Assembly: GCA_025602905.1 (NCBI GenBank)
Contig: JAHLKI010000006.1
Coordinates: 434,001 to 498,000 of the forward strand
From: Phlyctochytrium arcticum
Lineage: Eukaryota; Chytridiomycota; Chytridiomycetes; Chytridiales; Chytridiaceae
Reading direction: 5' to 3'
Length of the DNA: 64,000 nucleotides
The translations under genes and the position numbers were made by a program. This document shows, one piece after another, positions 19,778 to 60,030 of the stretch. The notes under the pieces are model-generated. The model had not been told where the DNA came from. It searched no databases and saw only the letters and a program-made list of their open reading frames with translations. Positions within the stretch are counted from its first letter, which is position 1. Each line of letters opens with the position of its first letter.

Positions 19778-20629
19778 TTTGTCGGATTGTAGTTTTGGTA
19801 GATGTTGATGGTAAAATCTTGTGGGGGAAATTGGGCAATGGGGACACGTCAGTTGTTTTGTCGCCCTGGTTGAACAATCACCCGAGCGGAGACCAACATC
19901 TATTCTGACCGGACGACTCACTCCAAAATCCAAATGTGGAAGGTTTCTGCCTGTTTTTGGAGTAAAAAGTACCGGATTAGGCGGAAATGGCTGAGAATGG
20001 AGATGTCGTCGGGGGATGTCAAGTCGAGTTCGATCATCTGTCCCAGATACGCAAGATTTTCGTGCGGTTTCCGTGCGTGGAGGGTATGTTTCCCCGTTTC
20101 TGAGACGTTTGACTCAAATTGGGTGATTGTCAGTCCACAAATGGGTCGGAAGTGTCCGCAATTGGATGTTGGCGGGAGTCGTTCTGTATTTTTGGTCGCC
20201 GACGAAGAGTACGGACGGGTACCTGGTGGAACAGGTCCGTCCGGGGTTGTCAGACATTTTCACACAATCGGGTGGTTTGTCAGTCTAGGAAAGATGGGGT
20301 GCGTATCGGGCGCTGTAATATCCGGATCGATCCACTTTGGCCGTGTCGCGTTCGTTCAACTTGCCCGGCGAGATCCCTCCAGAGTCCAGAGATCACTACC
20401 GCTCATTGCAACTTCAACCCAACAACGAAACTGCCAGATCTAGCTTTCCGTCTTCGCCCATACTTATAACACCCCTACCTTTCTGTCTTCACCCACTTTC
20501 ATCACACCTCTCTCAGTAAAAAGCCAGGATCTGTGTTTTTGGAGCGTGCTCTGTTTGCTGTCATTACCTTTGTAGGTCAATCAAGGTATTGTATAGTATG
20601 ATATTTTGAACCACCGTTTTCTTGTACAC
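19778..20629. other. Spacer between MAPEG gene and MULE transposase
   Basis: This holds the MAPEG promoter and the 5' flank of the MULE. A weak TATA-like word (TTATAAC near 20464) lies about 165 nt upstream of the transposase ATG. Open frames are GC-rich chance frames with no domain. MULE terminal inverted repeats, if present, should begin here, but I could not identify them by eye. Confidence 0.4.
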
Positions 20630-22003
20630 ATGAGCCTGATCAGCAACAAACTATCAGCCTTCAGTATGTCTCAACTTCGTGCCGCCAATATTGATCGTGC
20701 CAGAAGCTCGTCAATCTATTACCGCCGTCAAAGACTTTTTCATCCTATCACAGCTTTCGAAATACCCCTACAGGATTTTGCTGCGGAGTGGAAGCTTGGC
20801 GACAACTTCTGGACGCAGTACAATAACACTACTTCTGCTAAAACTGGAAAACAGACAATCTCCTACAAATGCAAGTTTGTCAAACACCGCAAGTCTTCGG
20901 GGAAACGACCCGACAAGGAAAATTGCCCACAGAAGAAGAGAAGACTTACGAGTGTCTTCACCAAAGTTGAATGCCCCGCACGCTTGGATGTTGTTATTGA
21001 CAAAAACAACAATCTGGTTACCATTCGACATGCTATTGGTCATACTGAGCATAGTGAAGGGCACGATAATGCGGACGCGGATGATCGTCATCTGTGTAGC
21101 CACGCCTCTGACTACATCAAGGACGAGGCGGAATCGCCGTATGCTCACGCAGATATTGCGAAAGCGTTGCCCGTCATAATCATGCGTGCAACGTCTCCTG
21201 CCCGTGTCAGCGCGCTCGGTCTGGATCGCGTCTCCGCCCGTGCTGTCTACAACGCACGCTGGAGAGAGCGTCGGGAGCAGGCAGCTCCTCCAGGGTCATT
21301 GGCGGAAGACGTGAAGCAGGCTATTGAGTACCTGACCGCTGAAGGCTACATTGTTAAGAGACTTTTATCTGGATCTGACGGACGGGCCGACGAAGGATTT
21401 ACTTTTGCCGTGAAGGAAAGTTTGAGCCTTCTTCCAAAGTGCAGTTATTTGGTTTTACTCGACTCCACCCACAAGACAAACCGGTACGATTGGAGATTAT
21501 TTACTTGTATGATCCGAAATCAGCAAGGCAGTTGGCTGCCGGCAGCGCAATTCTTTGTCAGCAACGAAAATGGTGATGCAGTCGCGTTGGGTCTGCAGCA
21601 AGTAAGAGAAATGGTTGAAGAGGTGTGCGGGGTCAAGTGGCAACCACGAAGTATCCAGGTCGATCAGTCCAATATCGAGAAAAACGGAATATTGCTGGCA
21701 TTCCCGGGAATGTACGCAGGAGAGGAGGAAGTTAAAGTTCGATATTGCAAGGTAACGTTCTAATTTGGGCGCAAGAACGCATCCCCAGATTTTGAATTAT
21801 CCTAGGTCCATGTCGCCCGCACTCTCATGCGTCGCCTAGCTACCCACAAACCTACATATGCCAAAATGCTGCAGGCACTAAACAAAACGACCATGGTCGG
21901 TGCCACGGCGTTGCTACGAGAGGCCATTACCGATGCTCCAGAAAAGCTTGGAAACTATTTGGAAAGTTATTGGGCAAATCCTGCTGTGCTGGATTTGCCA
22001 TAA
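20630..22003 (+). mobile_element. MULE-type (Mutator-like) transposase gene
   Basis: Two exons (20630-21751 and 21806-22003, with intron GTAACG...CCTAG) give about 439 residues. The N-terminal half has a FAR1/FLYWCH-like Cys/His arrangement (YKCKF...VECPARL...H-x4-H). A helix-turn-helix-like stretch follows. The RNase-H-like core has LLDSTHKTNRY (D about 278), AAQFFVSNENGDAVA and IQVDQSNIEKNGI (D about 345), with CKVHVARTLMRRL after the intron. These are MULE transposase landmarks. Only about 60 residues follow CKVHV, fewer than in full MULE transposases, and I cannot place the catalytic glutamate. The protein may therefore be C-terminally truncated or domesticated. Pyrimidine-rich repeat DNA starts right after the stop. 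Confidence 0.75.
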
Positions 22004-26601: not shown

Positions 26602-27095
26602 CTTGAAGTAGTCGGGGTATTATATAGACATTTTCCGGGGGGGTTGACGCCCTCACATATTCTGGATCCCGTACCCTTGGGGGTCGGGTTACATACGTGT
26701 ACGTGTATAACTTGTATGCCTGAAGCCACTCATTTCAAGGCTGAAACATTGTCGCGGGGGTTTTGCGGCGGAGTGGAGTGGCGCAAGATGGGGCGTTCGT
26801 GCTGACGTGAGGGCAGCGCATGAGTCAATTGCGCAGCCAAGGAAACTCCTCAATGAAGGCAGCTGGCCGCTGCTGGAGCTTTGCTATTGCTATTACAAAT
26901 GGCAACGACTCTCCGCATCCGTCTCAGGTAGCCGCTTCAAGTTTAAGAGCAGCATTAAGAACAACACACGACTTTGCTTGGTATCCAGCGATAGCCAGGT
27001 TAGTCGTCCTACTTTCTCTTTGAAATGAGCTTTGCCTCAAACATCACCGTTCAGATTTATCGGTCACTTCGTGGACAGGACCACCCCAAGCCGCG
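26602..27095. other. 3' flank of Fanzor copy 2 / ATPase promoter
   Basis: The first 200 nt contain G-runs and short self-complementary words (ATACGTGTACGTGTAT near 26693-26708; GCC...GGC around 26724-26742). In Fanzor loci the guide RNA overlaps the ORF 3' end and this flank, so it is a candidate region, but I cannot fold it. The distal part should hold the ATPase promoter. Confidence 0.35.
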
Positions 27096-30000
27096 ATGAG
27101 CTTCCAGTCTACTAACGACAGTGGCTCGCCCACCATGGCAACGACCACCATTGCTATCGAGGGAATGACCTGCATGTCTTGTGTCCGAACGATCGAAGGG
27201 CAAATACAGCCTAAACCAGGGGTGGACTCCATCACGGTATCCCTTGCCTCGAACTCTGCCACAATAAAGTATGACCCTGGCATCATTCACCATCCTCAAG
27301 AACTAGCGGATGCAATCGAGGAACTGGGTTTTGAAGCCTCCCTTCCGTCATCTACAACTCCCGATGAACCTTCTCGAATACAGCATTTTGATATACCTGT
27401 AGTTGGTATGACATGCCAGTCATGCGTGAAAACAATAACAGAAAAGGTCACCGTGCTTCCTGGAATTGAACAGGTTGTGGTGGACTTGGCGGCCAACATT
27501 GCTCGCGTCGATCTGGACATGACCATCCTATCAGTTCAAGATGTCGTTGATGCAATCGAGGATTGTGGCTTTGAAGCATCTATTCCACATACTTCCGACG
27601 TAGCACCCATTTCCCAACCTGCTGCACACCATCGCGTCCGCGCCTTATCTCAACCTCCGCCACACATCACCATCTCAAAACCAACACGTCCCCCATCGGC
27701 AGTGAATATGTCTTCACCTCTATATACCGCAACCACGGCTGGTCCCGTTCGCACAGTCCAACTGGAAGTGTTTGGCATGACTTGCGCTAGCTGCGTTGCA
27801 ACCATAGAAAAGCACTTACGTGGCAATCCCGCAATCGTTTCCTGCAAAGTGGCTTTGTTGGCCGAGCGAGCAGAAGTTCAATTCAAAGAGCTACTAATGA
27901 CTGAGGAACAAGTTCCTGAGATGATCAACGAGATTGGCTTTGAAGCGCGAATCCTTCCCACTGCGTCATTAGGCTCGGTGGACTTGAAGATTTTTGGAAT
28001 GACGTGTGGAAGTTGTTCTGGGAAGATTGAGCGCGAAGTCTTAAAGATACCTGGAGTTGAAACTGCGGCGGTTAATCTACTTGGCCAAAGTGGGCGATTC
28101 CAGTTCGATAGTTCTTTGCTTGGAGTTCGAGACGTAGTGGAGAAGATTGAGAGTCTTGGTTTTACGGCATTCATCTCAGATATGGGTTCAAATGCTCAAG
28201 CTGAATCACTGGAGCGCACGCGAGAAATTCAAGAATGGCGGGCCGCATTCTGGAAGTCGACCAAATTTGCGATCCCCGTAGCTCTAATTTCTATGATTTT
28301 CCCTATGACGTTCTTGGCCTCGTTTATTGACTATCAGCTGCTCCCCGGAATTTCCATTGGTGACACAACTCAGTTAATTCTTACCATCCCGGTTCAATTT
28401 GGCATCGGGAAACGTTTCTATACGGCGACGTTCAAGGCATTGTCCCACAAAAGTTACACGATGGATGTCTTGATCACATTGGGCACAACAGTGGCCTTCA
28501 TCTTTTCAGTTTCTGCTATGCTTTACGCATTCTGCGCCGGTGGACTTCCCAAGCCGCAAGTCTTTTACGAAACGTGCACCACGTTAATCACATTCATAAC
28601 ATTGGGCCGATACCTTGAAAACGTTGCTAAAGGAAAGACATCATCTGCGTTATCAAAGTTGATTTCCCTGGCCCCAACAACCGCTGTGCTGCTCACCATG
28701 GATGCTTCGGGTAGCACCCTTGAACGAGAAATTCCTTGCGAATACGTGCAAGCCGGTGATCTTCTCAAGGTTGTTCCTGGCGAGCGCGTGCCTGCTGATG
28801 GTGTAGTTGAATCCGGTAACACCAGTGTGGACGAATCGCTTGTTACTGGCGAGCCACTTCCCGTCAACAAAGCCATCGGTGATGGTGTCATTGGGGGAAC
28901 CGTGAACGGATCAGGAGTGATACATATGCGAGCTGTACGTGTTGGTGCCGATGCGACCCTGGCGCAAATCGTCAAGCTAGTGAACGAAGCACAAACCTCA
29001 AAAGCGCCGATTCAAGATATTGCCGATACCGTCGCCGGTTACTTCGTTCCAGGAGTCATCATTCTCGGCCTAATAACATTCTTCTCTTGGGTCATCATTT
29101 TATCAGCTACATCATGGCGTCCGTCAGTGTTCCCCAAGGAGAGCAGCGTGTTCTTTATCTGCATCAGCATGTGTATCTCGGTGATTGTCGTTGCATGTCC
29201 TTGCGCTCTAGGTCTTGCAACTCCCACGGCAGTTATGGTCGGCACTGGTGTCGGCGCACAGCTTGGAATTTTAATCAAAGGAGGAGGGCCTTTGGAAACC
29301 GCTCACCGAGTCACCAAATTCGTCTTTGACAAGACAGGCACTCTGACAATGGGAAAAATGTCTGTCGTAACACAGCATTTATTCGCCACTGATCCTCGCA
29401 TGAACGATGAAAAGTTCTTTTTCGGCATAGTTGGAGCAGCAGAAGCCAATAGTGAGCATCCTCTCGGTAAAGCCGTCGCCAAATTCGCCAAATCTCTGCT
29501 TCAGTTATCAAGTTTCGCTCATGTTGTGGAAACATTCGAAGCTGTGTCGGGCTCTGGCGTCCAATGCAGGGTCACTCCTCCGGTTTCCGACTCCATCAAG
29601 ACAACGCAAGCCATTGAAGTACTAATTGGCAATCAAGCATTTCTCGACTCCCTGTCATGCAGTCCCATTCCTCAAGGTATCTTGGATATCCAGCGGCATC
29701 ATGAGTCGATGGGACATACTGTTATCTTCGTCGCCTTTAACCGCCAACCGGTCGGCTTGATTGCTATGGCCGACACCATCAAATCAGCGTCGGTGCCAAC
29801 TCTTGAAGCACTGAAGCGGATGGGCGTTCAAGTGTGCATGGTTACGGGAGATCAACGCCTTACAGCCATGTCAATTGCCCGGCAGTGTGGTATACCCCAA
29901 CAAAACGTTTACGCCGGTGTTTCCCCTGCGGGCAAGAAATCCTTGGTTCGCAAGTTTCAGGAAGATGGCCATGTGGTTGCAATGGTGGGCGACGGCGTGA

Positions 30001-30723
30001 ACGATTCCGCCAGTTTGGCGCAAGCTGATATGGGAATTGCCGTGTTTGGCGGGACGGATGTTGCTGTGGAGGCAGCTAGCGTCGTTCTCATGCGAGATGA
30101 ATTGGGTGATGTAGTGACGGCAATGCATTTGTCGAGGACGATTTTCCGCCGAATCCGTCTCAACTTCTTGTGGGCGACCATGTAGTAAGTATTCTTATGC
30201 TGCACTATCCTCTGATGTAAATCGCTAATCTTTTCATTACAGTAATGTGCTTATGATTCCTCTCGCAATGGGTTTCTTTACTCCATGGGGTCTTACGCTT
30301 CCAGCAATGGTCGCCGGCATGGCCATGTCCTTCTCCTCTGTTTCTGTCGTCATCTCATCCTTGCTACTGAAACGGTACACCCCTCCCAAAGTACCAGGTC
30401 TTGGCGCTACGTCTCCGATGTTGGATATGGAACGCGGAGACAGTGCGCTTAGCGTGGACGATGTTGGAGTAATCAAGGGCGGACGCATTTCAATGTCTTT
30501 GGGCGAGGAAGATGACGAACGCCCCCTGATCAAGAAACCCTCTACCAGCAGCTTCAAGCGAGGCATGGTCGGTGGAGGTGTTACGTCCCCAGCTTCAGCG
30601 GGTGTAGCACTACAAAATCTACTTGGTGGTAGCGGCGGAGGTCGGGGTTACATTAGGGTCGAGGACGATGAGGGAGACGGTGACGATGAGGACCATTTAC
30701 TGGGTAATATTCAATTGCCATAG
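27096..30723 (+). CDS. CCC2: Copper-transporting P1B-type ATPase
   Basis: Exons 27096-30184 and 30243-30723 give about 1189 residues. Four N-terminal heavy-metal-associated domains each carry a GMTCxxC motif (GMTCMSC at C26/C29, then GMTCQSC, GMTCASC, GMTCGSC). The core has membrane segments, VTGEPLPV (actuator), the CPC metal-binding motif at about 701-703 ([13 protein letters not shown]), the phosphorylated Asp in DKTGTLT (about D745), SEHPLG (nucleotide binding) and MVGDGVNDS. The intron falls in the seventh-eighth membrane region (LWATM / [12 protein letters not shown]). The tail is acidic ([11 protein letters not shown]). This is the ATP7/CCC2 family, which moves Cu+ into the late Golgi to load secreted copper enzymes. 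Four metal-binding domains is more than the two of yeast CCC2. All catalytic motifs are intact. Confidence 0.95.
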
Positions 30724-37313: not shown

Positions 37314-39141
37314 CTACGACGTCCGTGTCTTCTTGGAAACCGGAGTGAACGCCGCGCCAGACGGGCGAGATGCTAAAGGCGGTTGTGAGAGACGAGGTAA
37401 ATTTGTCAGAACCTCGGATCTTGGGTAGCCTCTATCCAATGAGAGCAAATCCTTCAAATAAATGGCGTCTTTCACGACCACTTCGTTCAGGAACTCCGCA
37501 AATCGCAGCAAGTCAAACATTCCGTCCGGCGACCTGCCAATGGTGAATGATTGTTGCTGCCGCGCAACAATCCAAAGCAGGCCATCAATTTTGCGTACAG
37601 CCATAGAATAGACAACAAGGCCCGAATGTCCGACAAGATCGTAATGAAACCGCACGCGTTGAAGTTCCGTATCTTTGACATGGGTGGTAGACAGCAATGC
37701 AAGGCATTGTTGTGCGATCTCACCGGGAGTTTTAATGTGGTCTTTGTGAACTCGGTAAGAGCACTTGTCTTTCTGAACCTTAATAATGAAAGTGCCTAAG
37801 TGAAAGGCGTCGGTTTTTACACAAATTGTAATGTCCGATTTCGTGACTTTTTCGTTGTTGCCTGGTGTCGCCTCAAACATATGCGGAAATTCGAGACGCA
37901 CGTCGATGCCGTTTTCTTTACGTGCAGGTAAGGCCGCACAAATGAGCGAAAACCACATTGATCGTACATCTTGTTCATAAAAGTCAAACATTCCCGCTGG
38001 CGACCGGCCAATGGTGAAGGATTGTTGCTGCCGCCCGACAATCCAAAGGAGGCCATCGATCTTACGAACGACCATTGAGTATACGATTAGACCCCAGTGT
38101 CCGACAAGACCGTAATGAAACCGTACGTGTTTCGGATCTTTGACATCGGTGGTAGACAGCAATGCAAGGCATTGTTGTGGGGTCTCGCCGGGAGTTTTAA
38201 TGTGGTCTTTGTGAACTCGGTAAGAGCACTTGTCTTTCTGAACCTCAATAATGAAAGTGCCTAAGTGAAAGGCATCGGTTTTTACACAAATGGTGATGTC
38301 CGATTTCGTCACCTTTTCGTTCTTGCCTGGTATCGCCTCGAACATATGCGGAAATTCAAGACGCACGTCGATGCCTGTTTCTTTACGTGCAAGTAATGCT
38401 GCACAAATGAGCGAAAACCACATTGATCGTACATCTTGTTCATCGTAATTGTCGCCATCCGCAGCGATGCTTGAGTTCAGATGAAGCAACGACATCGTGG
38501 CGGGAGCTGACACAAGTGCTTGTCTGTGAGCTGGCTTCCACGGCCACGACATCCGGGGGGGATTTATAACTTTCCCTTCTTTTCGAAGTGTTTCCACGGT
38601 CATGCAAAACATCCGGCTCAACACTTTGGAATGCGGAATGTACCGCGCAAAGATTTACGGTAATAGGTTTAGGTCTTCTGCCACCATCGTCCGATCGATC
38701 CTCTCCATTGAATAGCCCAAGATAACGGTCATCCAACGTCGCTGCGTCTCTCAATAACCTCAGGACGTGTCGACCAGTTTGTTTCAGACGAACGTCCGCT
38801 TGTAAGGTATAATCTGCAGCTCGCTCAATGTATTCGGAGATGGTTGCAGATCCGCGGGCCAGCAGGCGAACGTCATCGAGCAACATTTGGTCATTACGCA
38901 AGTCCACGATTCTGTCTTCAGGCACGCTTTCAATCATCGACGATGCGCGCGGCGGCGGAAGGGTTGGCGTGACTGGGGTATCTGCATTACTAGAACTGCC
39001 AGCAGCCGAATCTATGAGCCTTCTTTTTCTTGTGGTCTCTTGGATGATCTCGGCGGCGGCGGCTTCGACCGATTCGCTTAGTACATTGTCGGCTGATACT
39101 TGGGCTTTCTGCCGGAGTGTTGTCTGCAGATTGATTGTCAT
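37314..39141 (-). CDS. Internally duplicated PD-(D/E)XK-like protein, one frame break
   Basis: The 3' part (38624-37314) encodes two nearly identical blocks of 155 codons. Each reads DVRSMWFSLICAAL, RLEFPHMFEA, SDITICVKTDAFH, GTFII(E/K)VQKDKCSYR, HKDHIKTPGE, DGLLWIV and QQQSFTIGRSP. The D-x-T-I strand followed by I-I-E-V-Q-K resembles the D...E-x-(Q/K) core of PD-(D/E)XK nucleases, the fold also seen ahead of fungal FunK1-type kinases and in Crinkler-like proteins. In block 2 the glutamate codon is Lys, so only block 1 keeps the motif. The 5' part (39141 to about 38600) is in another frame, starts MTINLQTTLRQK and looks like a helical regulatory segment. A frameshift or unseen intron near 38580-38640 is needed to join them. 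Function unknown. Nuclease fold is inference. Confidence 0.55.
37500..38429. repeat. Recent in-frame tandem duplication, 465 bp units
   Basis: The sequence CACATTGATCGTACATCTTG occurs at 37954 and 38419, exactly 465 nt (155 codons) apart. The two units are almost identical at nucleotide level throughout, so the duplication is young. Confidence 0.9.
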
Positions 39142-45014: not shown

Positions 45015-48195
<3,181 letters not shown>

Positions 48196-49875: not shown

Positions 49876-51302
49876 ATGATTAGCGGTCACGAAGTCGACG
49901 AATCTCCAATCAAGGAAAAGTGGCGATACGCACAAGGAGTAGAATTCGCAACGACAGACTCTTTGAACCACTCTTCCAACGCTGAAATGGTAGGATCTGA
50001 TCCGCTCATTTTACGAAAATAATTTATATGCTCATTGCCCCTTTTGGTTGCAACAGCCCCACCCAGCCAAATCAGACCGCTCCACCATGGTATCTCCAGG
50101 TCCTGCCAACAGTGGGACATCCGGAGCTGACAGTCAATCTGGTGCAGAGCACCAGCAACCCAGCTATCATGATGTCATTTGTTCGCACCTTTACCACAAC
50201 GGATACCTTCAAGGCCTCTATGCTGATTTGATTGTCCGATTGCAAACTCTGCACCCGAATGGCGTGAGCAATGGATCTCCTTTGGACGCAATTCTTTTCA
50301 AACTCCACCGTATCATTGCCATCAGGAGCCCGTACCTGGCGTCATTGCTTCGAGAAGACATGGAGATTAACGGAGAGTATGTAGTTTCTGTCGTTTGAAA
50401 GGATGTGCAAGACGGCTAATGTGTTTTTCAACAGATACCAACCTGTTGTTTCCCTGACAATTCCCGCGCACGATCCCAATTTGACTCCAGAAGGTCTTTC
50501 AATTGCCTTTGGACACCTGTACGCTTCCTATCCCCACTCGCTTCTTTCCCCCACCGATGGCCCTTCCGCCCAGCGATCCGCCCTTCTCCGGTCTGTTCTT
50601 TGCGCTGCCAACCTTTTGCAACTCGGAGACCTCGCCACTCTCGCCGGTGACCAGATCAAAGGCGATATCAACCGCGAGAGCGTTCTGGACTACTGCCAAT
50701 TTGTCAGCCAAGCCGATTTCGGGGCCAGTTACGGATCCCTCAGTCAGGAAATCCGGTCTGCGGTCCTGATTTATCTGACCAAGGGTGTTGTCGGTGATGT
50801 GGCGGACCACTTGGGACCAATTTGGGGCAACCGGGAAGGCGAGGCTTACCGTGAACTGGTCAAGACGTTTGCCGAGCTCCCATTTGAGTGGCTCAAGAAG
50901 GTTGTGGAGAGCAAAAGCTTTGAGGTGCCGGGCGACATGGAGCGGTATGTATTCCATGCAATTTGGTCGGGATTGTGTGACTAAACGACAATACGCTACA
51001 GATTTTCTTTTGCAAAAGAGATTATTGCCCTGCGGCAACGTAACAAGAACCTGACATCCTCTCTCATTGCTGGTGAAGAGAATGTATTGCTTGCCTTTGG
51101 CTCCAAAGATTGCTCGGGCGTCACCCTCGTGCGCAAGGCCATCCGTCACCACAACCAGCACCACCATCACCACCAGCCGCAGTCACCCTCCCAATCCCAG
51201 CAGTCCGGCTCTAGCACAACAAGCACGACTTCCGGCGGTTTGCCACGGATGGGCAGCGGGTACGGTGGTCCAGAGCGACGATTGTGGAAGGCCGGCCATT
51301 AA
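49876..51302 (+). CDS. BTB/POZ-domain protein
   Basis: Four exons: 49876-49989, 50057-50376, 50435-50944 and 51002-51302, in frame to about 414 residues. The BTB-like fold starts near residue 80 (GLYADLIVRL...FKLHRIIAIRSPYLASLL), where the surface loop after LHRII matches the pattern of BTB proteins in fungi (YDR132C/germ-cell-less type). A helical BACK-like region follows (LQLGDLATLAGDQI, LDYCQFVSQADFG, LPFEWLKKVVESK). The tail has a His-rich run and Ser/Gln repeats. BTB proteins often act as adaptors for Cul3 ubiquitin ligases or in dimerisation. The partner is unknown. All introns have GT-AG ends. Confidence 0.82.
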
Positions 51303-51876
51303 ATTCTTTGTGATTTTGGAGCGTTTTTCTCGCCTGAATAGGCAGCATCATGTTTAATCTCCGATCCAATTCATTATTTCCATTTCCCCCCCTCCCTTTT
51401 TTAAACACGACATAAATTCCCCTCCCTCACATTTGACAGCTCGTTCAGCACGGTCGCTTCCGTATGATGATGACAATTGCAGCGACTACAGTACTTGCGT
51501 TTTGGACCCGGCTGGCGGTTGATGCGCAATGGAATATGTGACTCGTTGGTTCTTCCCCTTGGCTTTCGTTGGTCTGTCCGTTGTTTTGTTTGTTCGCCGC
51601 GTTTTACATGTCATAAAGATCTGTCTTCTTTCATTTCCGCATCGTCCCCCCTAGACCGAATTGACAGGATGTCAGGTACACGGATGCACCTTGATCATAA
51701 AAAAAGCCAATCTATCCAATCTGTGCTTGCCACCGCCAATTACCCTTTCCATCATGCAAACCCCTGCACCAAACTTTATTACTCGTCTTGGGCGTTGTTA
51801 ATTGCGCGCGGACCATCCGGGATGCCAGGGGTAAGTAGGGGGCGCGCAGCAAATTGGCCAGGCAAGATCCGCGGGC
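51303..51876. other. Spacer before the orphan promoter
   Basis: Pyrimidine-rich 3' flank of the BTB gene, then GC-rich DNA leading to the TATA box at 51877. No gene is seen. Confidence 0.4.
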
Positions 51877-51884
51877 TATAAAAG
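51877..51884 (+). promoter_or_regulatory. Strong TATA box with C/T-rich initiator region
   Basis: TATAAAAG in GC-rich surroundings is followed by about 80 nt of C/T-rich leader (CCCATTTCCC, CTTTCCC). This is a textbook fungal core promoter pointing toward the transposase-like gene 800 nt downstream, with no ORF of its own. Confidence 0.55.
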
Positions 51885-51967
51885 GACGGCCCTCCCTCGC
51901 CCATTTCCCTTCTCACTCAACCCACTTTCCCAACATCCTTTCCTTCGACTCCCCACCCCCCAAACAG

Positions 51968-52236
51968 AATCACTGCTAGTCCACTACCAGGTCCTGTCTT
52001 TCTGCCATTTCCCTCATTTGCAACCGGGGATCAGAAACGCATAACTTGGAGCGGAGAGTGGTAATACTGTTTGTGGTAGTTGTCTTCTTTTTTGATTTCT
52101 TTTTTTTTGGATTCAAAAATCAAACATGATTACTGCTATTCCTCTACCGAGTCTTGCCTTTTGTGTCTTGCCCTTGCATTTATTTTTTGTGATGAGGGCA
52201 TTCCGAAACGCATAACTTGGAGCGGAGAGTGGTAAT
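51968..52236. repeat. Duplicated leader with identical 32-bp core
   Basis: Unit 1 (51968-52065) and unit 2 (52129-52236) both run from an (A/G)AT(C/T)ACTGCTA start through CT(C/A)TACC-(A/G)G-type and TTTCTGCC/TTGCC blocks. Each ends in an identical 32-bp core (first half GAAACGCATAACTTGG), 171 nt apart at 52034 and 52205. Confidence 0.85.
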
Positions 52237-52697
52237 CTTGTTTGTTTTTTATCTTTTGGGAGGGGAGTTTTATTTGTAATGTAAAGGAATGTCGGGCGTG
52301 GCCGGCATATAAATTCCATCTTACATCAGAAGAAAAGTCCAGGAGGAAAGTCTCTAATGTAATGTGAATATGACCAGCGTAAACTGGCCAGGAGTAATCT
52401 AAATAAACTATGAATAGCTGCGGCTGTAATTTTGTGGTCAACCCGGTTTTTGACTGACTGTGCCTAAAAAGTGGGACAGTCATCTTAGTATTAGGTAATC
52501 CGATCCGACCGAGCCGTTTTACTGTACGTTTTGCACGAACATTCGTCCACCATCTGTCCATTTTGACGCGACAATTTCGAATAGACACTTCTGTTAGGCC
52601 GTTCAAACTCTCCTCAGCCGGTATGGGAAGCACTCTTTGCGATTTTACCCGGGACTTTTCTGACAACAGCTTAGAATTCTGACGTGCAAGTGGTGGC

Positions 52698-55325
52698 ATG
52701 CCTCCAAAGAGAAAGGTGAATTCATGATCTCAGAAAAAACGCTTCACCGGTGTGTGAAAGTCAGTACACTGATTCTTTTACTTCTTCTCTTTGCGATTAT
52801 TATAGCGCCAGCCTGATGATGGCCTTCAGTGGTACACACAGAAGCCTGGGAAGAGTGGTGGGAAGTGGGAATATAAGCCTGGATGTATTGGATGTGGGAC
52901 GCTGAGATCCAATCGCTTCCACAAGTTTCATTGGGCAGAGGTCGGCACTCTTCAGTCAAACGGTTTGACGCTGCATTTTGGTCCGGGACTCGTCCACCCG
53001 TGGGTTTGTAACAATTGCCGCACACGCTGGTCGGAAGCAGGAATCGAACGGGGCCCACTTGTCCCCCTCCATGACGATGCCGATGAATCCACAACCGAAA
53101 TCGATGATGGCGGTTCTAAGAACAGCAAGGTCGTCCTTGCTGCACACTTTCAAGAAGCAGAGAGCCAAACCGATGGATCTGTGGTCACCCTGAACGGTTT
53201 GAACTCAACTTCAGCCTCGGAATACCAAGATGCATTGCGAGATTTGATCTCGCGACCGTTTCCGGGCAATCCATTCATCGAAATGGATGAATTCGTGGAG
53301 CAGTATCCACGAGCCTATGAGATCAAATCTCTTATGCTCGCTCACTCTGACCAGCACTCCGCCGTCTACAACGATCGGAAGATGAGACACGTCATCGTCT
53401 CCATTTGCTACGATGGATCCGTCCTGGATCAAAGCTGCGACTATGTGAAAAGATTCATCGGCCGCCGCTTCATCACCTCATCCTACTCTGATCAGCGGTT
53501 TTTATCGAGGATGAACTGTGGCTTTCATCCTCCGAAAAACATCGGTCGCATCAACAATCTCATAAAAACAGCACGCCAGAGTATTGGCGAAGACATCTTG
53601 GAGAATGATCCATTGTTGGCTGTCACCATTGACGATTTTCATTGGTGTCAGGTTCGCGCTGTACCGGACACATCAAATGCACCCGGGAAATTTACTAGCG
53701 CTCGTACCACCGCAAATTACGCGGTCAAGCTCCACAGGGATCTGCCGCCTCTCCCTTCTGGAATAAGCCAAGTACTGAAGGATGTCCTACAGGACACGTC
53801 ATGGATCTCCTCCGTCTTTGCTAGTCCAGAAACGCAAACATACGCAGAAGTTCGCAATGGCGAAGTGCAATCTAAGAAGATGTATGCGTATAGTATTGCC
53901 ACCAAGGCTGGATCTCAAGAGGACTTTTATGTCATTGGCAGTGATGACAATCCCATGAAATGTGCTCTTGATCTGCAGCCCGTCATGGACAACATTGCAG
54001 CATTCCTCACCGAGATTGACTACCCGGACAAAGAGGGAATTTTCCATAATTCCTTCGTACTGGCTGGCGATTTCTATGTCTGGATGTACGCTAGCAAATT
54101 GCTACGATCACCCAGATATAAACATCTCGAGGCTCATGTTCTTCCCGTCCCCGATATCATGCATGTGGCCTTGAATGCACAGGAGGCGGTCCTCGTGCAT
54201 GCATGGACCATCATTCATTCCCTTTGGCTCGCGGGGTACCCGGATGTGGAAAATACCACTCCCATCAACATGCGACCAAAGCGAAGGACGGCCATGTTGG
54301 CACTAGCATTGACTGCCTGGCAAGAGTGCCGGCAGGAGTTGTTGGCTGCTTACAAGAAGTCCGCAGCCAGCAATCCGGAGGCAACGACAGTCCGTAAGGC
54401 AATGGTCGACACCCTCATTGCCGTGTTCGAGGAGTACATTCCCATTGCAGTTGATTGTCCGTACCTCCTGGCCAGTGGGGATCTTCTTCAAATCAAGCTG
54501 TGTCTGACGCGTTTGTTCCCTCTGTTTGCTCTTCTGGGAAAGAAAAACTATGTCAATATTATTCTCTTCCAGCTCGGTCTTTTAGAAAAATTACCTTCTC
54601 TCCTTCCGAATGATATTCCCATGGCTTTTCTGTTTTCCAAGTTCTCAAGTGAAGACTTGGAAGTATTTCACTCCATCCTCCGGGCCGCAATCCGCTACCA
54701 GGATACCAACGATCAAGTATCTAGGAAAGCCATGTTAATCACTGCCATGAGCGGCGAGTCCGCAGTAAAGCAGCTTGCTGCTATGACCGCGAGGGAGAAG
54801 GCGATTCGTGAACAAGCTGCCTCTCCGATCAAGAAAGAGACACGTCCTTCCGCTCCATCTCCTTTGGAGAAAGCGAGCGAGGATGTTGTCCCGAGAATGG
54901 TCGTATTTCTGAAGAGCTTGTTCACTTCATTGTTCACTTTCTCTTTCGACGTCGTTGGGCAGCACGGCAAGACCCCTTACACGTCTGATGTACCACACTA
55001 CAAGCTCATTCAGAGGCCACTGCCTTCATCTCAACCGGTTACATCTGCGGAAGAATCTCCTGAGGTTATTCTGGCCACGATTCGGGAGTCACTCGTGCCA
55101 TTACAGCTGCGCCGACAGACTCTTGTCAACCTTGGTAATCACGTTGATGTAGAGAGCTTTCAAACGGTCCCATTGCCGATTGCGAAGAACCCATTGGGTG
55201 ATATCACCAATCTGCCGTCCCCCAGTTCCAAAACGACCAAAAAACCTGTCCGAGACTTCCTCTCCACGACCTCCCTCGAGTACGATCTCGCGCGTTGCGG
55301 TTGCTTCGCTTTAGCCTGCCAATGA
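52698..55325 (+). mobile_element. Transposase-like protein with CxxC zinc finger
   Basis: A tiny first exon (52698-52715, MPPKRK) joins a 2.5-kb second exon (52806-55325), about 845 residues in all. CxxC pairs at about 33/36 and 74/77 form an N-terminal zinc finger. The core matches a repetitive family that I know from early-diverging fungi such as Rhizophagus: a first acidic site in VTIDDFHW (D about 282), LAGDFYVWMYASKL (D about 428), VPDIMHVALNAQEAVL, then a long helical insert and EDLEVFHSILR (E about 625). The D-D-E spacing with a helical insertion suggests an RNase-H-like DDE transposase, but this is inference and I cannot name the superfamily. The tail is Ser/Pro-rich. It converges on the intact Fanzor with 400 nt between stops, as if both ride in one element. 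Confidence 0.65.
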
Positions 55326-55724
55326 TCAGCAATGTATCAGTCCATTGGGACTACGTCACTAGAGCATTTCCTGAAAAACATTGACAAAGATGTTCCGCGT
55401 GATAGTGAAGGTAAGCCAGACAACGATGTCTTCCGAGCTGTGTCTCTCGCCGGTGGGAGATCAACCTCTCACCGTTTTTTACACCCCATCTAAAATCACC
55501 CGACGCAGGCTCAACTTGCTAGCTTGATTACGGGACCCTCTTTTGCTCATATATGTACCTGTCCGAACGCGGTCGATGAATTTAGACGCTTCTTTTTTCG
55601 CATCAAACTTCAATTTCTACATAGGCTTAGGTAGTTGCCACGCTCTCTCAAATTTCTTTAGTAAACTTTCTTCGACTTCAGCTACCCATAAGATATATTT
55701 CATATACCCTTTTCAGGTACCTCT
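55326..55724. other. Intergenic space shared by transposase-like gene and Fanzor 3' ends
   Basis: The sequence is compact. Read on the minus strand it contains GGTGAGAGGTTGATCTCCCACC near 55470, a near-perfect hairpin (GGTGAGAG...CTCCCACC). In known Fanzor loci the guide RNA comes from the ORF 3' end and this flank, so it is a candidate guide-RNA region. No RNA evidence is available from sequence alone. Confidence 0.4.
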
Positions 55725-57707
55725 TCATTCTCCAGGAATTCCCCCAGCGGTCGGACATTGCTTATGTAAATTTTTGGCGCCAAAAAACCGGGTTGCGCTG
55801 AGATCACCAGCCAGAACTGAGTTCACAATTTTCAACATGTTTGTTGTACTCATGTCATCCCTGTTCCAAATATTGCGAGCTTGCTTGGCACAATTCAGAT
55901 TTTGACAAACCAGCAGTCCATGAACCACCCGCCATCTCTTCCCTCCCGATCCCCACCTGGGGGACTTTCGTCGGATCCACGGACGTGGGCTGTCGCGGTA
56001 AAGCATCGGCTCCACCACTTGCTCGCATTGAGGGCAGAGTTTCGAAGTTCTGAACTCATCAATAAGGTAGCATACAATTTTTTGTTGTTTGAAATATCTG
56101 AGCCATCCCGTTGTTTTCGAAGGCTCATTGTACCGTAGGGTGTGTCCTCCATCACTCCAGTCTCCCAGTATCAGGACAGCATCCTTCCCAAATTTTCTTC
56201 GAAATCTTGTGACAAACTTTTGTTCGCTCCTTTGAGTATTGATGTATCGGTTGAATTTCAATTTGTTGTGTATGGGTAAGTCGTAGAAAGGTTGGATCTT
56301 GGGCACTACGACGTTTCGTGCTTCGAGATAAGTCTCAAAGAAGTCCAAACTCATACTTTTCGAAGTGGGAAGCATGCTTTCCCAGGCGGCAACGCCGGCT
56401 TCGGTTCTCATACCATCTATAATCCGTGTGTACTTCTTTGTTCTAGTCTCCAACCTTCGCTGCATGCTTGTGTACCGTAGCTGATTGCCGTCGTTATCAC
56501 GGCAGTATAGAAGGTCCCTTTTATTTGGATCCGCTACGACAAAGTTCGTCTTGCTGACAATAACAGGGAGATGGTTTTGGAAATACAATGATTGCTTCTC
56601 GCCCTCTTGCTCGTTGTGCTTCTCTCGCTGTCTTTTTCTTTTTTTTGATCGCACCTTTCTGGGCCTTCCACTCGAATCATAAACGTCTGGCTCGAAATAT
56701 ACCGTAACCGATGTACAATCTGTTGATATCCGCCCGGCAAAGCGATATCCCTTTCGCGGCTTGAATGGTTTGGAGCTCAGACGAAAAAGATTCCCCCATA
56801 GATCCCCTTTGTTTGAACTCATATTCTTCACAAGATCTGGTCGTCCCAGTAAATTTAGGCAGAGAATTCTCGTGTCAATTGGGAGATGCGCGACATTCAA
56901 TTTCCGCCGGAGAGGAAGCGCCGAAAATAACGGAAAACCTTGTGCCTCGAGGCACGCAGCTAGCCGACAGTACGCTGGAACGAAACTTTGCGTCTGAGCC
57001 ACAAGGTTGTACGCCAGTGGGTACTCCTGAACTTCATCGTAGGGTAGAATGTATCCGAACTCTTTTACGAGGTCCTCTTCGACTGGAAGAAGCGTGTATT
57101 GTGGATCAGGGTGGCTGTTCCTCAGGCATAATTCTTTGACGTGTCGAATCCGCGCTCGGTAGGTTTTAAGGGCTGCCTTATTCCCACGAAGTGTCTTGAG
57201 CCCATCCTTCACGCCCAATACATGGTTGATATAGCGAGCAGCCATCTGGCTGAAGTGTTGCTGAACATTGACAAGCACGTTCGTTGCCATAGTGCGTGAG
57301 AGATAGGTATTCAGCTGCTGAACATTGTGGATTCTCGGTTGCTCAAAAGTCGGGACCAATTTGCGGTATCGGGCGATTGTGAAGCGCATCTCGCTGACGA
57401 GCGCTTTGTCTTCTGCAGATCTTGGGTTGAAATCGTCGTTGAGTAGATACAGGATCACAGAAGATACTTTGGGAACATCTCCATAGCGTGGTTCGTAATC
57501 CGCGTGATGGAGGTAGTAGAGCTTGAATACATGGGTGGCATGAATGACGAGTTCGTGGCAGGATTTGACTAGCGTCCGTAGTTTCTGATAGTAATCCTCG
57601 TTGAGAGGAAAAGCGAAGGCTTTGCGAAAGGAAGTTTTTGTGCAGACGTACGATTGTTCTTCGGTATTCATCAGCGCAATCGACCGGGGCTGTCGCGGGG
57701 GGCTCAT
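55725..57707 (-). CDS. Fanzor (eukaryotic TnpB-family RNA-guided endonuclease), intact
   Basis: One uninterrupted exon of 660 codons from ATG 57707, or 648 from a second ATG at 57671. The N-terminal half is helical and matches the other Fanzor here (CHELVIHATHVFKLYYLHH against VHELASHTTQFLRFFYTQH). A lysine/arginine stretch RKVRSKKRKRQREKH (about 350) may be a nuclear localisation signal. RuvC motif I is DPNKRDLLYC (D about 393). GDWSDGGHTLRY (about 515) stands where TnpB has its RuvC-II glutamate but has none, while LIDEFRTSKLCPQC supplies a glutamate at about 551. The zinc ribbon is CPQC (558/561) and CQNLNC (601/606), and RuvC-III is NRDDMSTTNM (D about 617). Every residue expected for nuclease activity is present. 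Fanzors make guided double-strand DNA breaks. The biological role in the host element is not settled. Absence of introns differs from the paralogue. Confidence 0.95.
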   Translation of the reverse strand: MSPPRQPRSIALMNTEEQSYVCTKTSFRKAFAFPLNEDYYQKLRTLVKSCHELVIHATHVFKLYYLHHADYEPRYGDVPKVSSVILYLLNDDFNPRSAEDKALVSEMRFTIARYRKLVPTFEQPRIHNVQQLNTYLSRTMATNVLVNVQQHFSQMAARYINHVLGVKDGLKTLRGNKAALKTYRARIRHVKELCLRNSHPDPQYTLLPVEEDLVKEFGYILPYDEVQEYPLAYNLVAQTQSFVPAYCRLAACLEAQGFPLFSALPLRRKLNVAHLPIDTRILCLNLLGRPDLVKNMSSNKGDLWGNLFRLSSKPFKPRKGYRFAGRISTDCTSVTVYFEPDVYDSSGRPRKVRSKKRKRQREKHNEQEGEKQSLYFQNHLPVIVSKTNFVVADPNKRDLLYCRDNDGNQLRYTSMQRRLETRTKKYTRIIDGMRTEAGVAAWESMLPTSKSMSLDFFETYLEARNVVVPKIQPFYDLPIHNKLKFNRYINTQRSEQKFVTRFRRKFGKDAVLILGDWSDGGHTLRYNEPSKTTGWLRYFKQQKIVCYLIDEFRTSKLCPQCEQVVEPMLYRDSPRPWIRRKSPRWGSGGKRWRVVHGLLVCQNLNCAKQARNIWNRDDMSTTNMLKIVNSVLAGDLSATRFFGAKNLHKQCPTAGGIPGE

Positions 57708-57720
57708 CCACTGGCCACCC

Positions 57721-57727
57721 TTTTATA
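57721..57727 (-). promoter_or_regulatory. TATA box very close to the Fanzor ATG
   Basis: TATAAAA (minus strand) lies only 14 nt upstream of the first ATG. A start site 25-30 nt downstream would fall near 57692, inside the ORF, and would make the ATG at 57671 the first usable one. Confidence 0.5.
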
Positions 57728-58302
57728 GCAGCACAAGGGGGGGCGTGGGAAATTGAGGATCCAGCTTGTTGCTATGGCATCGCTGATGATCTTTCCCGTG
57801 TTTTCCCGAGGTTCCGGATTTTGCCGCTCCAAATCCCGCTCACAATCCTGGACTTCCTGGACTTTCCTATTGGTGGGTCCATATATATCATACCTCAGAT
57901 GACATTTATTTTGTTGATGCAAGCGTGGCAAGCGTCGTTCTCGCCAATGCAAGCCTGAATGTAAGCAAGGTTCTTTCCGTGTGATCCTCCCCTAAAATAA
58001 TGGGTGGAGACCAATTGCTTGCAATGAACTCGTCTCAGTTGAGAACTGGGCTTTGTTCCTACGGCGAGTTTTGGATCCGCTAGCAACAAGCACATTCGAA
58101 AACAATGAAAACATTTAGAAGACGATATGGAAAAAAATACTGAGTGACAATGAAGAACATCAGGAATTAGCAACGATATCAATTACAAAAGGACTACTGA
58201 CTACTGTGACGGAGAAAATAAATGGGGGAGATGCTGAGTGTCCGCTAACCCGATAGACGAGAAGAAAAGTTCATAATAAGCCCAATCCGGAACCAATACT
58301 AG
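57728..58302. other. Fanzor 5' flank
   Basis: GC-rich promoter-like DNA to about 57880, then AT-rich. A second TATA-like word (ATATATATC near 57880) is present. Element ends or terminal repeats should lie in or beyond this stretch, but I could not identify a pair by eye. Confidence 0.35.
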
Positions 58303-58491
58303 TCAGGCCATATTGCCATGAGTAATACAAAATCCTGAAGAAGGACAAACTCGCGAGTTGTTGCGTACAGGATCGAACTCACTCCTTACCCAGAAAGGAG
58401 GCAGACCGTAATCCGTATGCGACCGGACAAATGTCTTGTAGAGGGTAAGACGGACGTTTTCAGACCAGTGGGGTGTACGGGATACTCTCAC
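58303..58491 (-). pseudogene. Reverse-transcriptase remnant (non-LTR type)
   Basis: The minus strand reads WSENVRLTLYKTFVRSHTDYG, close to the R-x-x-LYK-x-x-VRS-x-x-(E/D)YG motif that follows the catalytic domain of non-LTR retrotransposon reverse transcriptases. It is about 60 codons long with no neighbours in frame. Confidence 0.45.
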
Positions 58492-58699
58492 TACACGATA
58501 TGGCCAAGCTTAACCAAGTGCTCATGTACTGCAGATCGGGCCAATCGACCAGCCCGCGCTTTACAGAACAGATTTTGTCTAAAGCAGTATATTAGTTTCT
58601 TCATTCAATGAGTTCACCAGAGTGCGATACTTACTTTGACGATCAAAAAATAAAGCCGCATACCCACCTCATACCCTACATTCCTGACCATGAGAGGAC

Positions 58700-60030
58700 A
58701 TTTAGAAATGCTATTCGTGCTCTTCAACACCGCTATGTATGCAGTACTTTGAACGTGTGACCGTTCTCATAAACAAAGGTTCCCGGAAGGAGGCACCATT
58801 TCTGATCAGGGTGACACATACACCAGAAGCAAGGTAGTGTATCTCTCCATATGGCTTTGAACCCAAGTGCTCCCGACAATCTTTTACGCCTTTTGAATGT
58901 ACGATATCGTCGCGCAAAAGACGAAAAATACCCCTGAGAATAGCGCTTCTCTGGGTGATGACAATTGGAAACGACGCTCTCACGGTTGGGTCTTGCCACT
59001 CCGCTTGGGAGGCTGGGCTGATATGCGCAGTCGCAATATCATCGCACGCCTGCTGAAATAGCATGGCCGGAGGATGGCGGTGATGGAGGCCTCTTTGAGC
59101 GTCCTGGAAAGTTCGGAGCGTATTTTTTTGGGTTGGAAATTGTCTCATTCAATCTTTTGGAAAGAAACCATAAATGACTGGCCATATGGGCGATATAGCG
59201 CACATATCTGAGCAAAGCATACCTTTGAATGATATAAAGCCAGAAAAGAGTCTTCTTTCCTCTTTCAGCAAGTTGCATCCTTGAAGTCCTTGTAGCCACT
59301 GGCCGCAATCAATCTGACGGGGATGAGGTTACGGGGTGAGTCTGCACACAGTAAAGTCGGAAATGGCGGTCCCGTTTGGTAACTTGAAAATAGCATGTCT
59401 ACGGGTGCCCGATGCCTTTTCCCCGAGGAACGGGCGATCTTCTAAAAAAAGAGGGGTGTGAGTAGGCGCCTCCAAGCGAATAAAATCTCCATACTTGTAG
59501 GAGCGCGGCCCAAGAGCTTCCATGGAGAGTATCCATAATTTGACCAAAATCTCGTTTTCGAAACCAATGTTTCAGCGATTTCATCTGTCGGTAAGTTGGT
59601 TTGTTTGCTTTTCCTGAACGTTGCCGGCGGAAATTTGTATACGTTGCGTCGTCAAAGGAAAATGGGCGTACGACATTTCCCTTTGCAATGGGTTCTATAC
59701 CGTAAGTGCACATCCAACCAGGTATTTTGGAAACACTCCCTGTCTACCGGTCCATGCAATCAGGTGGTAGTGTTTACTCGCTGGCGGCTTGGGGGCGCCA
59801 CAGAGTCCCCGCATGTGCGCAAGTGGTTCAGATAGGGCGCTCATCCTGCAGTCACATAACCACAAATCAGTAAATAAATAATAACTGGGGTGCATATCAG
59901 AGGCATACCCTTTTGCAAGAAGATACGATCGCGTAACGATTGTCTGTAGCCAAAATTGCACTGGGAGGGGCGGGGAGTCTAGGTGACTCCGACCATGGTC
60001 GAGGGTTGTCCGGATTTGCTCAGAAGACAT
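58700..60030 (-). pseudogene. Decayed gene of unknown family
   Basis: Starting at ATG 60030 (MSSEQIRTTLDHGRSHLDSPP), protein-like segments continue in changing frames. They are an in-frame 63-nt intron candidate (GTATGC...CTGCAG), then MSALSEPLAHMRGLCGAPKP, YLVGCALTYGIEPIA, LVKLWILSMEALG, YKYGDFIRLEA, AIFKLPNGTAISDFTVCRL and, near 58740-58820, a Cys-rich CFWCMCHPDQKWC. The YGIEPIA block recurs near 60700, and a more diverged relative lies near 61520. Frame changes exceed what introns obviously explain, so I favour decay. Family unknown. Confidence 0.4.

Follow-up and report, generated by a model that had tools for sequence, protein, structure and literature searches.

Does the 660-codon open reading frame (ORF) at 55725-57707 of this 64,000-nucleotide stretch of the Phlyctochytrium arcticum genome (hereafter the window) encode an intact Fanzor RNA-guided nuclease, as its initial annotation held? 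Fanzors are eukaryotic kin of CRISPR-type DNA cutters. We put the probability at about 90% that the locus is a copy of a P. arcticum Fanzor1 transposon, which was split by a second, unrelated transposon just before its stop codon and is most likely no longer a self-contained RNA-guided nuclease locus. Genome searches were performed on the P. arcticum assembly (31.5 Mb, 91 contigs), in which the window is C6:434001-498000; copies elsewhere are named in the same manner (C5, C46, and so on).

The reading frame is that of a Fanzor1

The ORF lies on the minus strand, is uninterrupted over a single exon, and carries the motifs that had been listed for it (DPNKRD, DEFRTSKLCPQC, CQNLNC, and NRDDMS); frame 1 of the plus strand over the same interval is stop-rich. 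By homology search, residues 2-634 align to SpuFz1 of Spizellomyces punctatus with E = 1.2e-118, far beyond chance, and further matches were found to the Fanzors of P. parasitica (PpFz, 1.3e-36) and G. theta (GtFz, 9e-5). The catalytic residues D393, E551, and D617 are kept and correspond to D383, E541, and D606 of SpuFz1, as counted by hand on the homology alignment; the zinc-ribbon cysteines C558 and C561 are kept as well, and the D393 column is invariant across all 29 aligned rows. Comparison with known Fanzor structures, proposed as a check by the initial annotation, matched the Fanzor1 fold (WED, REC, RuvC, and NUC), with SpuFz, PpFz, and GtFz chains taking rows 1-7 both by Foldseek and by Z. 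The proposed profile check did not reach its threshold: the Pfam model Cas12f1-like_TNB (PF07282) scored 13.3 bits against a cut-off of 26.3, this being a general Cas12f/TnpB domain model rather than a definition of Fanzor1, for which E 0.001 was passed by 10 of the 29 aligned proteins. An NCBIfam search with the ORF returned a chance-level match only. Given the SpuFz1 match and the retained RuvC catalytic residues, the family assignment stands, and so does the suspicion of a chytrid-like genome, P. arcticum being a chytrid in the NCBI taxonomy. The locus is a genuine Fanzor1, a new member of a known family in the form of a damaged copy; among the papers searched, none named Fanzor together with Phlyctochytrium, and one paired it with the term chytrid.

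A second transposon splits the Fanzor element

When the genome was searched with the DNA of the locus, two repeat families were found to meet inside the ORF, at 55802/55803. The copies at C5, C46, and C51 (97-98%) match the window only down to 55803, and other places in the genome match beyond that point. In all three sister copies, window position 55803 is followed by five bases, GGGAG, and then by the equivalent of window 52438-52322. Because these sisters run straight through the site, sequence comparison indicates that 52439-55802 is an insertion of 3.36 kb just before the Fanzor stop codon, base 52439 being compatible with either element. The locus is composed as follows.

57855-57875, minus strand: left terminal inverted repeat of the Fanzor element (CACCAATAGGAAAGTCCAGGA)
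55803-57707, minus strand: Fanzor1 coding sequence, codons 1-635, from homology, fold, and catalytic residues
55725-55802, minus strand: read-through tail of 25 codons (LSATRFFGAKNLHKQCPTAGGIPGE) and a stop, both supplied by the terminal part of the nested element rather than by Fanzor
52439-55802, plus strand: nested transposon of an unrelated family, terminal inverted repeat core CAACCCGG..., from repeat copies elsewhere
52965-55325, plus strand: large ORF of the nested element, a putative transposase, from the ORF list and protein matches
52698-52715, plus strand: probable first exon of the nested ORF, read by eye
52322-52438, minus strand: cut-off 3' end of the Fanzor element, with the native last codons, the native stop (52408-52410), the guide-RNA region, and the right end with TA, from sister comparison
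52324-52344, minus strand: right terminal inverted repeat of the Fanzor element

The gene that had been called intact is thus Fanzor in codons 1-635, and its codons 636-660 belong to the end of another mobile element, where they stand in place of the last 11 native residues, GRPENYSRSYS or GRPQNYSRSHS. The lost C-terminus held the motif RPxx[FY]xR. Among 28 relatives examined, drawn from 76 homology matches, 21 have this motif. Six of the remaining seven stop short of the C-terminus and P0070 reads RASFFYR, which leaves P0070 as the one exception among the 22 relatives that extend this far. In SpuFz1, R631 of the C-terminal loop, which may or may not be the arginine of this motif, contacts DNA (PMC11423790). 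With the C-terminal motif lost and the guide-RNA part separated by the 3.36-kb insertion, the impression that the gene looks functional does not hold either. Cloning the "intact" ORF with the DNA behind it would yield a chimaeric C-terminus and the end of another transposon instead of a guide RNA.

The nested ORF has at least 98 matching stretches in the genome, a lower bound obtained from scoring 57 of 260 candidates, and all 12 of its protein matches, among the 7993 candidates sharing most words, are from P. arcticum. It ends early at a TGA, past which the relative P0078 reads on. Searches of Pfam, NCBIfam, and PDB with the nested ORF gave nothing beyond chance; DUF6589 was found weakly in two of 13 relatives (best E 0.02), and the protein model (predicted local distance difference test score, pLDDT, 41.7) was too poor, so that no fold search was made with it. 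The transposase-like neighbor noted earlier is this ORF; it belongs to the unrelated inserted element, and no transposase domain was recognized in it.

The C75 and C49 copies of the nested element start with CTCAGCGCAACCCGG and end with CCGGGTTGCGCTGAG, and the C45 copy starts without the CTCA part of CTCAGCGCAACCCGG. An 8-bp target-site duplication, ACAGGTGG, is present on both flanks of the C75 copy; the flanks of the C49 copy are GTCGCGCT and GTTGCGCT. In the window, the right junction of the nested element is exact, and the left one is without the first seven bases (CTCAGCG), the expected duplication, and the GGGAG of Fanzor. A deletion of about 20 bases after the insertion probably explains these losses, and it would hamper further movement of the nested element.

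Sister copies and target motif

The Fanzor subfamily of the window (family A) comprises four copies with coding sequence and a fifth place, C9:775081-775223, with the right end only. The C51 copy has one extra base at nt 72, and the C5 copy is missing one base at nt 941. The C46 copy (annotated, P0001) keeps its frame, has lost two bases at its right end, and carries Asp at the catalytic Glu (E551D), the sole Asp in that column of 29 rows, which also has one Lys and one gap. No undamaged family A copy was seen in the assembly, the window copy being the split one. A search for a partner transposase sharing the family A terminal repeats found seven places within two mismatches, all in the five A copies, and this candidate was rejected. 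Among viral contigs of IMG/VR, none of 58 pattern matches was confirmed.

In four members of family A (window, C5, C46, and the right-end copy on C9), TATATA precedes the left end at a distance of a few bases. Four family C copies begin with ATA, the base ahead of it being G in three of them and C in one; this ATA could also be element sequence, the left boundary having been put behind it by analogy with SPu-1, the S. punctatus element. The target motif of SpuFz1 is CATA (PMC10432273, in part). From the flanking TATATA, the ATA starts, and the SpuFz1 motif, NATA is predicted as the target motif in P. arcticum.

Predicted guide RNA

Where, then, would the guide RNA (omega-RNA) of this element lie? 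The stretch between the native stop and the right end folds into two stems over 76 nt (-22.9 kcal/mol), and the omega-RNA is predicted, by analogy with SpuFz1, at the right end of the Fanzor element.

52322-52397, minus strand: predicted omega-RNA scaffold, 76 nt including the terminal TA, from fold and SpuFz1 analogy
52371-52390, minus strand: stem-loop 1 of the predicted omega-RNA, from fold
52307-52321, minus strand: predicted 15-nt guide AGATGGAATTTATAT, the first host bases after the element and TA, from SpuFz1 analogy

The SpuFz1 scaffold is 75 nt long and comprises two stems and a 6-nt linker at A29-C34, with contacts at U5, C6, C7, C19, and G20 (PMC10432273, in part), and stem-loop 1 has seven base pairs in three Fanzor1 structures (PMC11423790, in part). 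The 5' end was placed so that UCC takes the SpuFz1 numbers 5-7. Without further choice, the other features then agree: stem-loop 1 covers nt 8-27 with 7 bp, the bases that follow stay unpaired through A29-C34, and the second stem, closing on TA at nt 76, incorporates the right terminal repeat.

Families A, B, C, and F of the genome supplied seven hairpins, which have C6, C7, G14, U15, C19, G20, and C21 in common. Across these seven rows, 96.4% of 56 stem cells are paired, compared with a shuffled mean of 68.7, and 15 cells show double changes, compared with a shuffled mean of 5.7; neither value was reached in any of 500 shuffles. Six pairs contain a double change, a count that 51 of the 500 shuffles reached, and there are ten further pair types, a count reached by 18. 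This comparison left out the C9 right-end copy (one extra loop base), further same-family copies, and families D and E, in which the hairpin could not be placed. The initial hairpin pattern, GTTNACGC, missed the B-family hairpins, which were added after reading the family B tails. The pattern occurs at six sites in the window, of which two pair well: 52371-52390 (7/7) and 26635, behind a second Fanzor pseudogene (6/7). Rfam at gathering thresholds gave no match in window 50000-60000. A whole-genome search for the motif joined to the window guide within two mismatches found no second site; the guide itself matches its own right flank (one mismatch) and one two-mismatch site without ATA.

Is the split locus still active?

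An unbroken copy, if SpuFz1 is a fair model, would produce from its 3' end an omega-RNA that joins a scaffold of about 76 nt to a guide of about 15 nt taken from the flanking DNA. Loaded with this RNA, the Fanzor protein would cut the empty donor site beside the NATA-like motif, which would help the element persist after excision. In the window copy, the protein is without the conserved C-terminal motif, and protein and guide RNA would now lie 3.4 kb apart; any remaining activity is therefore predicted to be in trans and weak. This would be a natural case of a nuclease and its guide physically parted.

Several points weigh against this reading. With its catalytic residues in place and an unbroken omega-RNA part, the copy may retain weak activity, for example through a separate transcript for the omega-RNA, such as the "ghost" loci of Spizellomyces might have. 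The omega-RNA length brings no independent agreement with SpuFz1, because the 5' end was set by analogy. The covariation rows were hand-picked, with C35/C26 and C31/C20 being near-duplicates. Finally, no target-site duplication flanks the Fanzor element of the window copy.

The alternative that survives best, although we consider it unlikely, is that the locus is split but alive, its chimaeric protein working with omega-RNA from its own cut-off right end or, in trans, from sister right ends. The scaffold is whole, four other right ends exist in the genome, and ghost omega-RNAs work with SpuFz1 (PMC10432273, in part). Furthermore, the window and C46 differ at 12 nonsynonymous and 13 synonymous codons over 1476 and 429 sites, respectively, a ratio of nonsynonymous to synonymous change (dN/dS) of about 0.27 from raw counts; comparison of the codons thus suggests past constraint on the Fanzor protein, but the ratio may mostly reflect time before the insertion. 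Set against this are the lost motif, so widely kept among relatives reaching it, the DNA contact of R631 in the SpuFz1 C-terminal loop, and the lack of a second genomic site for motif and guide.

It is very improbable that the locus is intact and functional with a guide RNA just downstream at 55400-55800, where the initial annotation had suggested looking. The ORF is open and its catalytic residues are kept, but 55400-55802 belongs to the other repeat family, with copies elsewhere; 55400-55800 is part of the nested element and has no stem-1 hairpin on either strand, which speaks against it as the guide-RNA site, and the native 3' end is 52322-52438, where three sisters continue. This reading is refuted unless the assembly is wrong at both junctions. 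A composite transposon, in which the neighboring transposase moves Fanzor in a functional partnership, can be dismissed almost outright: the two elements adjoin each other, and transposons that encode transposases are known to carry Fanzor genes (PMC3627910, in part), but the putative transposase is part of a nested, unrelated element with different terminal repeats, its own ends, and its own duplication in the C75 copy, the six places matching its end (95-99%) are not among the Fanzor-body places, those of their flanks that were read hold no Fanzor, and the element is absent from all four other A-family places.

Comparison with Spizellomyces punctatus

In structural alignment, the window Fanzor is 39-40% identical to SpuFz1 over 575-592 residues and has the same catalytic residues. 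Both elements are single-ORF transposons with inverted repeats (about 2.2 kb in P. arcticum and roughly 2.1 kb for SPu-1), with an omega-RNA, predicted here, that follows the stop codon toward the right end and comprises two stems with a linker, and with similar target motifs, NATA-like by prediction and CATA in SpuFz1. The comparison thereby yields a predicted guide-RNA map and target motif for SpuFz1 kin in a second chytrid. The systems differ in that SPu-1 is TA-flanked, whereas one of three complete left ends in P. arcticum (C5) has an 8-bp duplication, and in that 42 Fanzor loci and 134 ghosts are reported from S. punctatus, compared with five right ends found here. The window copy, unlike SPu-1, is split by a transposon.

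Invaded loci are known from S. punctatus too. There, 11 Fanzor loci have other mobile elements inside the inverted repeats, including Gypsy/Ty3 near or in the Fz gene, and the authors take an insertion in the Fz gene for a past transposition and not for an association (PMC10432273). In the window, a foreign mobile element likewise lies within a Fanzor element, but the intruder is a DNA transposon with terminal repeats, whose family had matches in P. arcticum alone among the candidates scored, and it sits between the nuclease domain and the predicted omega-RNA.

Duplications at left junctions

At some left junctions, TATA is followed by a duplicate of the first right-flank bases, counted from its TA: eight bases in C5 and ten in the C9 right-end copy (both family A), and 12 in a family C copy at C9. 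The duplicated stretch corresponds to the predicted guide target, and both C9 copies are 5'-truncated elements. Copy-back repair has been considered after TnpB cutting, and a transposase usually leaves one fixed duplication length. Duplications of variable length, from the target motif into the guide target, are what would remain if an empty site cut by Fanzor were repaired from a filled sister and the repair broke off. That some Fanzor copies carry scars of RNA-guided cutting and copy-back repair is a tentative and rather doubtful idea; if true, genomes such as this one record Fanzor homing directly. No duplication is found at the junctions of the 5'-truncated C51 and C20 copies or of the complete window and C46 copies, by eye C3 has none and C17 at most three bases, and all of these speak against scars. 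The four canonical family C copies have TA alone at the left junction, a result that depends on the boundary set behind ATA by analogy. Family F (six copies), a possible source of further left-end duplications, has 5' parts in different groups and no clear left end.

Other features of the window

The second Fanzor pseudogene, of another family, runs on the plus strand from 24654 to about 26715. It is 35% identical, contains one in-frame TAA, and has its own predicted guide-RNA hairpin at 26635. The genome holds another five related copies (96-99% alike), with 5' parts in different groups. A MULE transposase domain (Pfam E 7e-10) marks a fragment at 20606-21763 on the plus strand; from 21388 on, this fragment is shared with the C44 copy of the second pseudogene's Fanzor family. 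An ORF for a P-type ATPase with four heavy-metal-associated (HMA) stretches (27096-30185, plus strand) adjoins the pseudogene. Just past the right end of the family A element, a 44-base direct repeat (52031-52074 and 52202-52245) is 93% alike, its units 171 bases apart. Elsewhere, a 465-bp unit is tandemly duplicated at 37510-38443 (88% matches), and 47440-47612 is an array of about 29 copies of the hexanucleotide CAGCAA.
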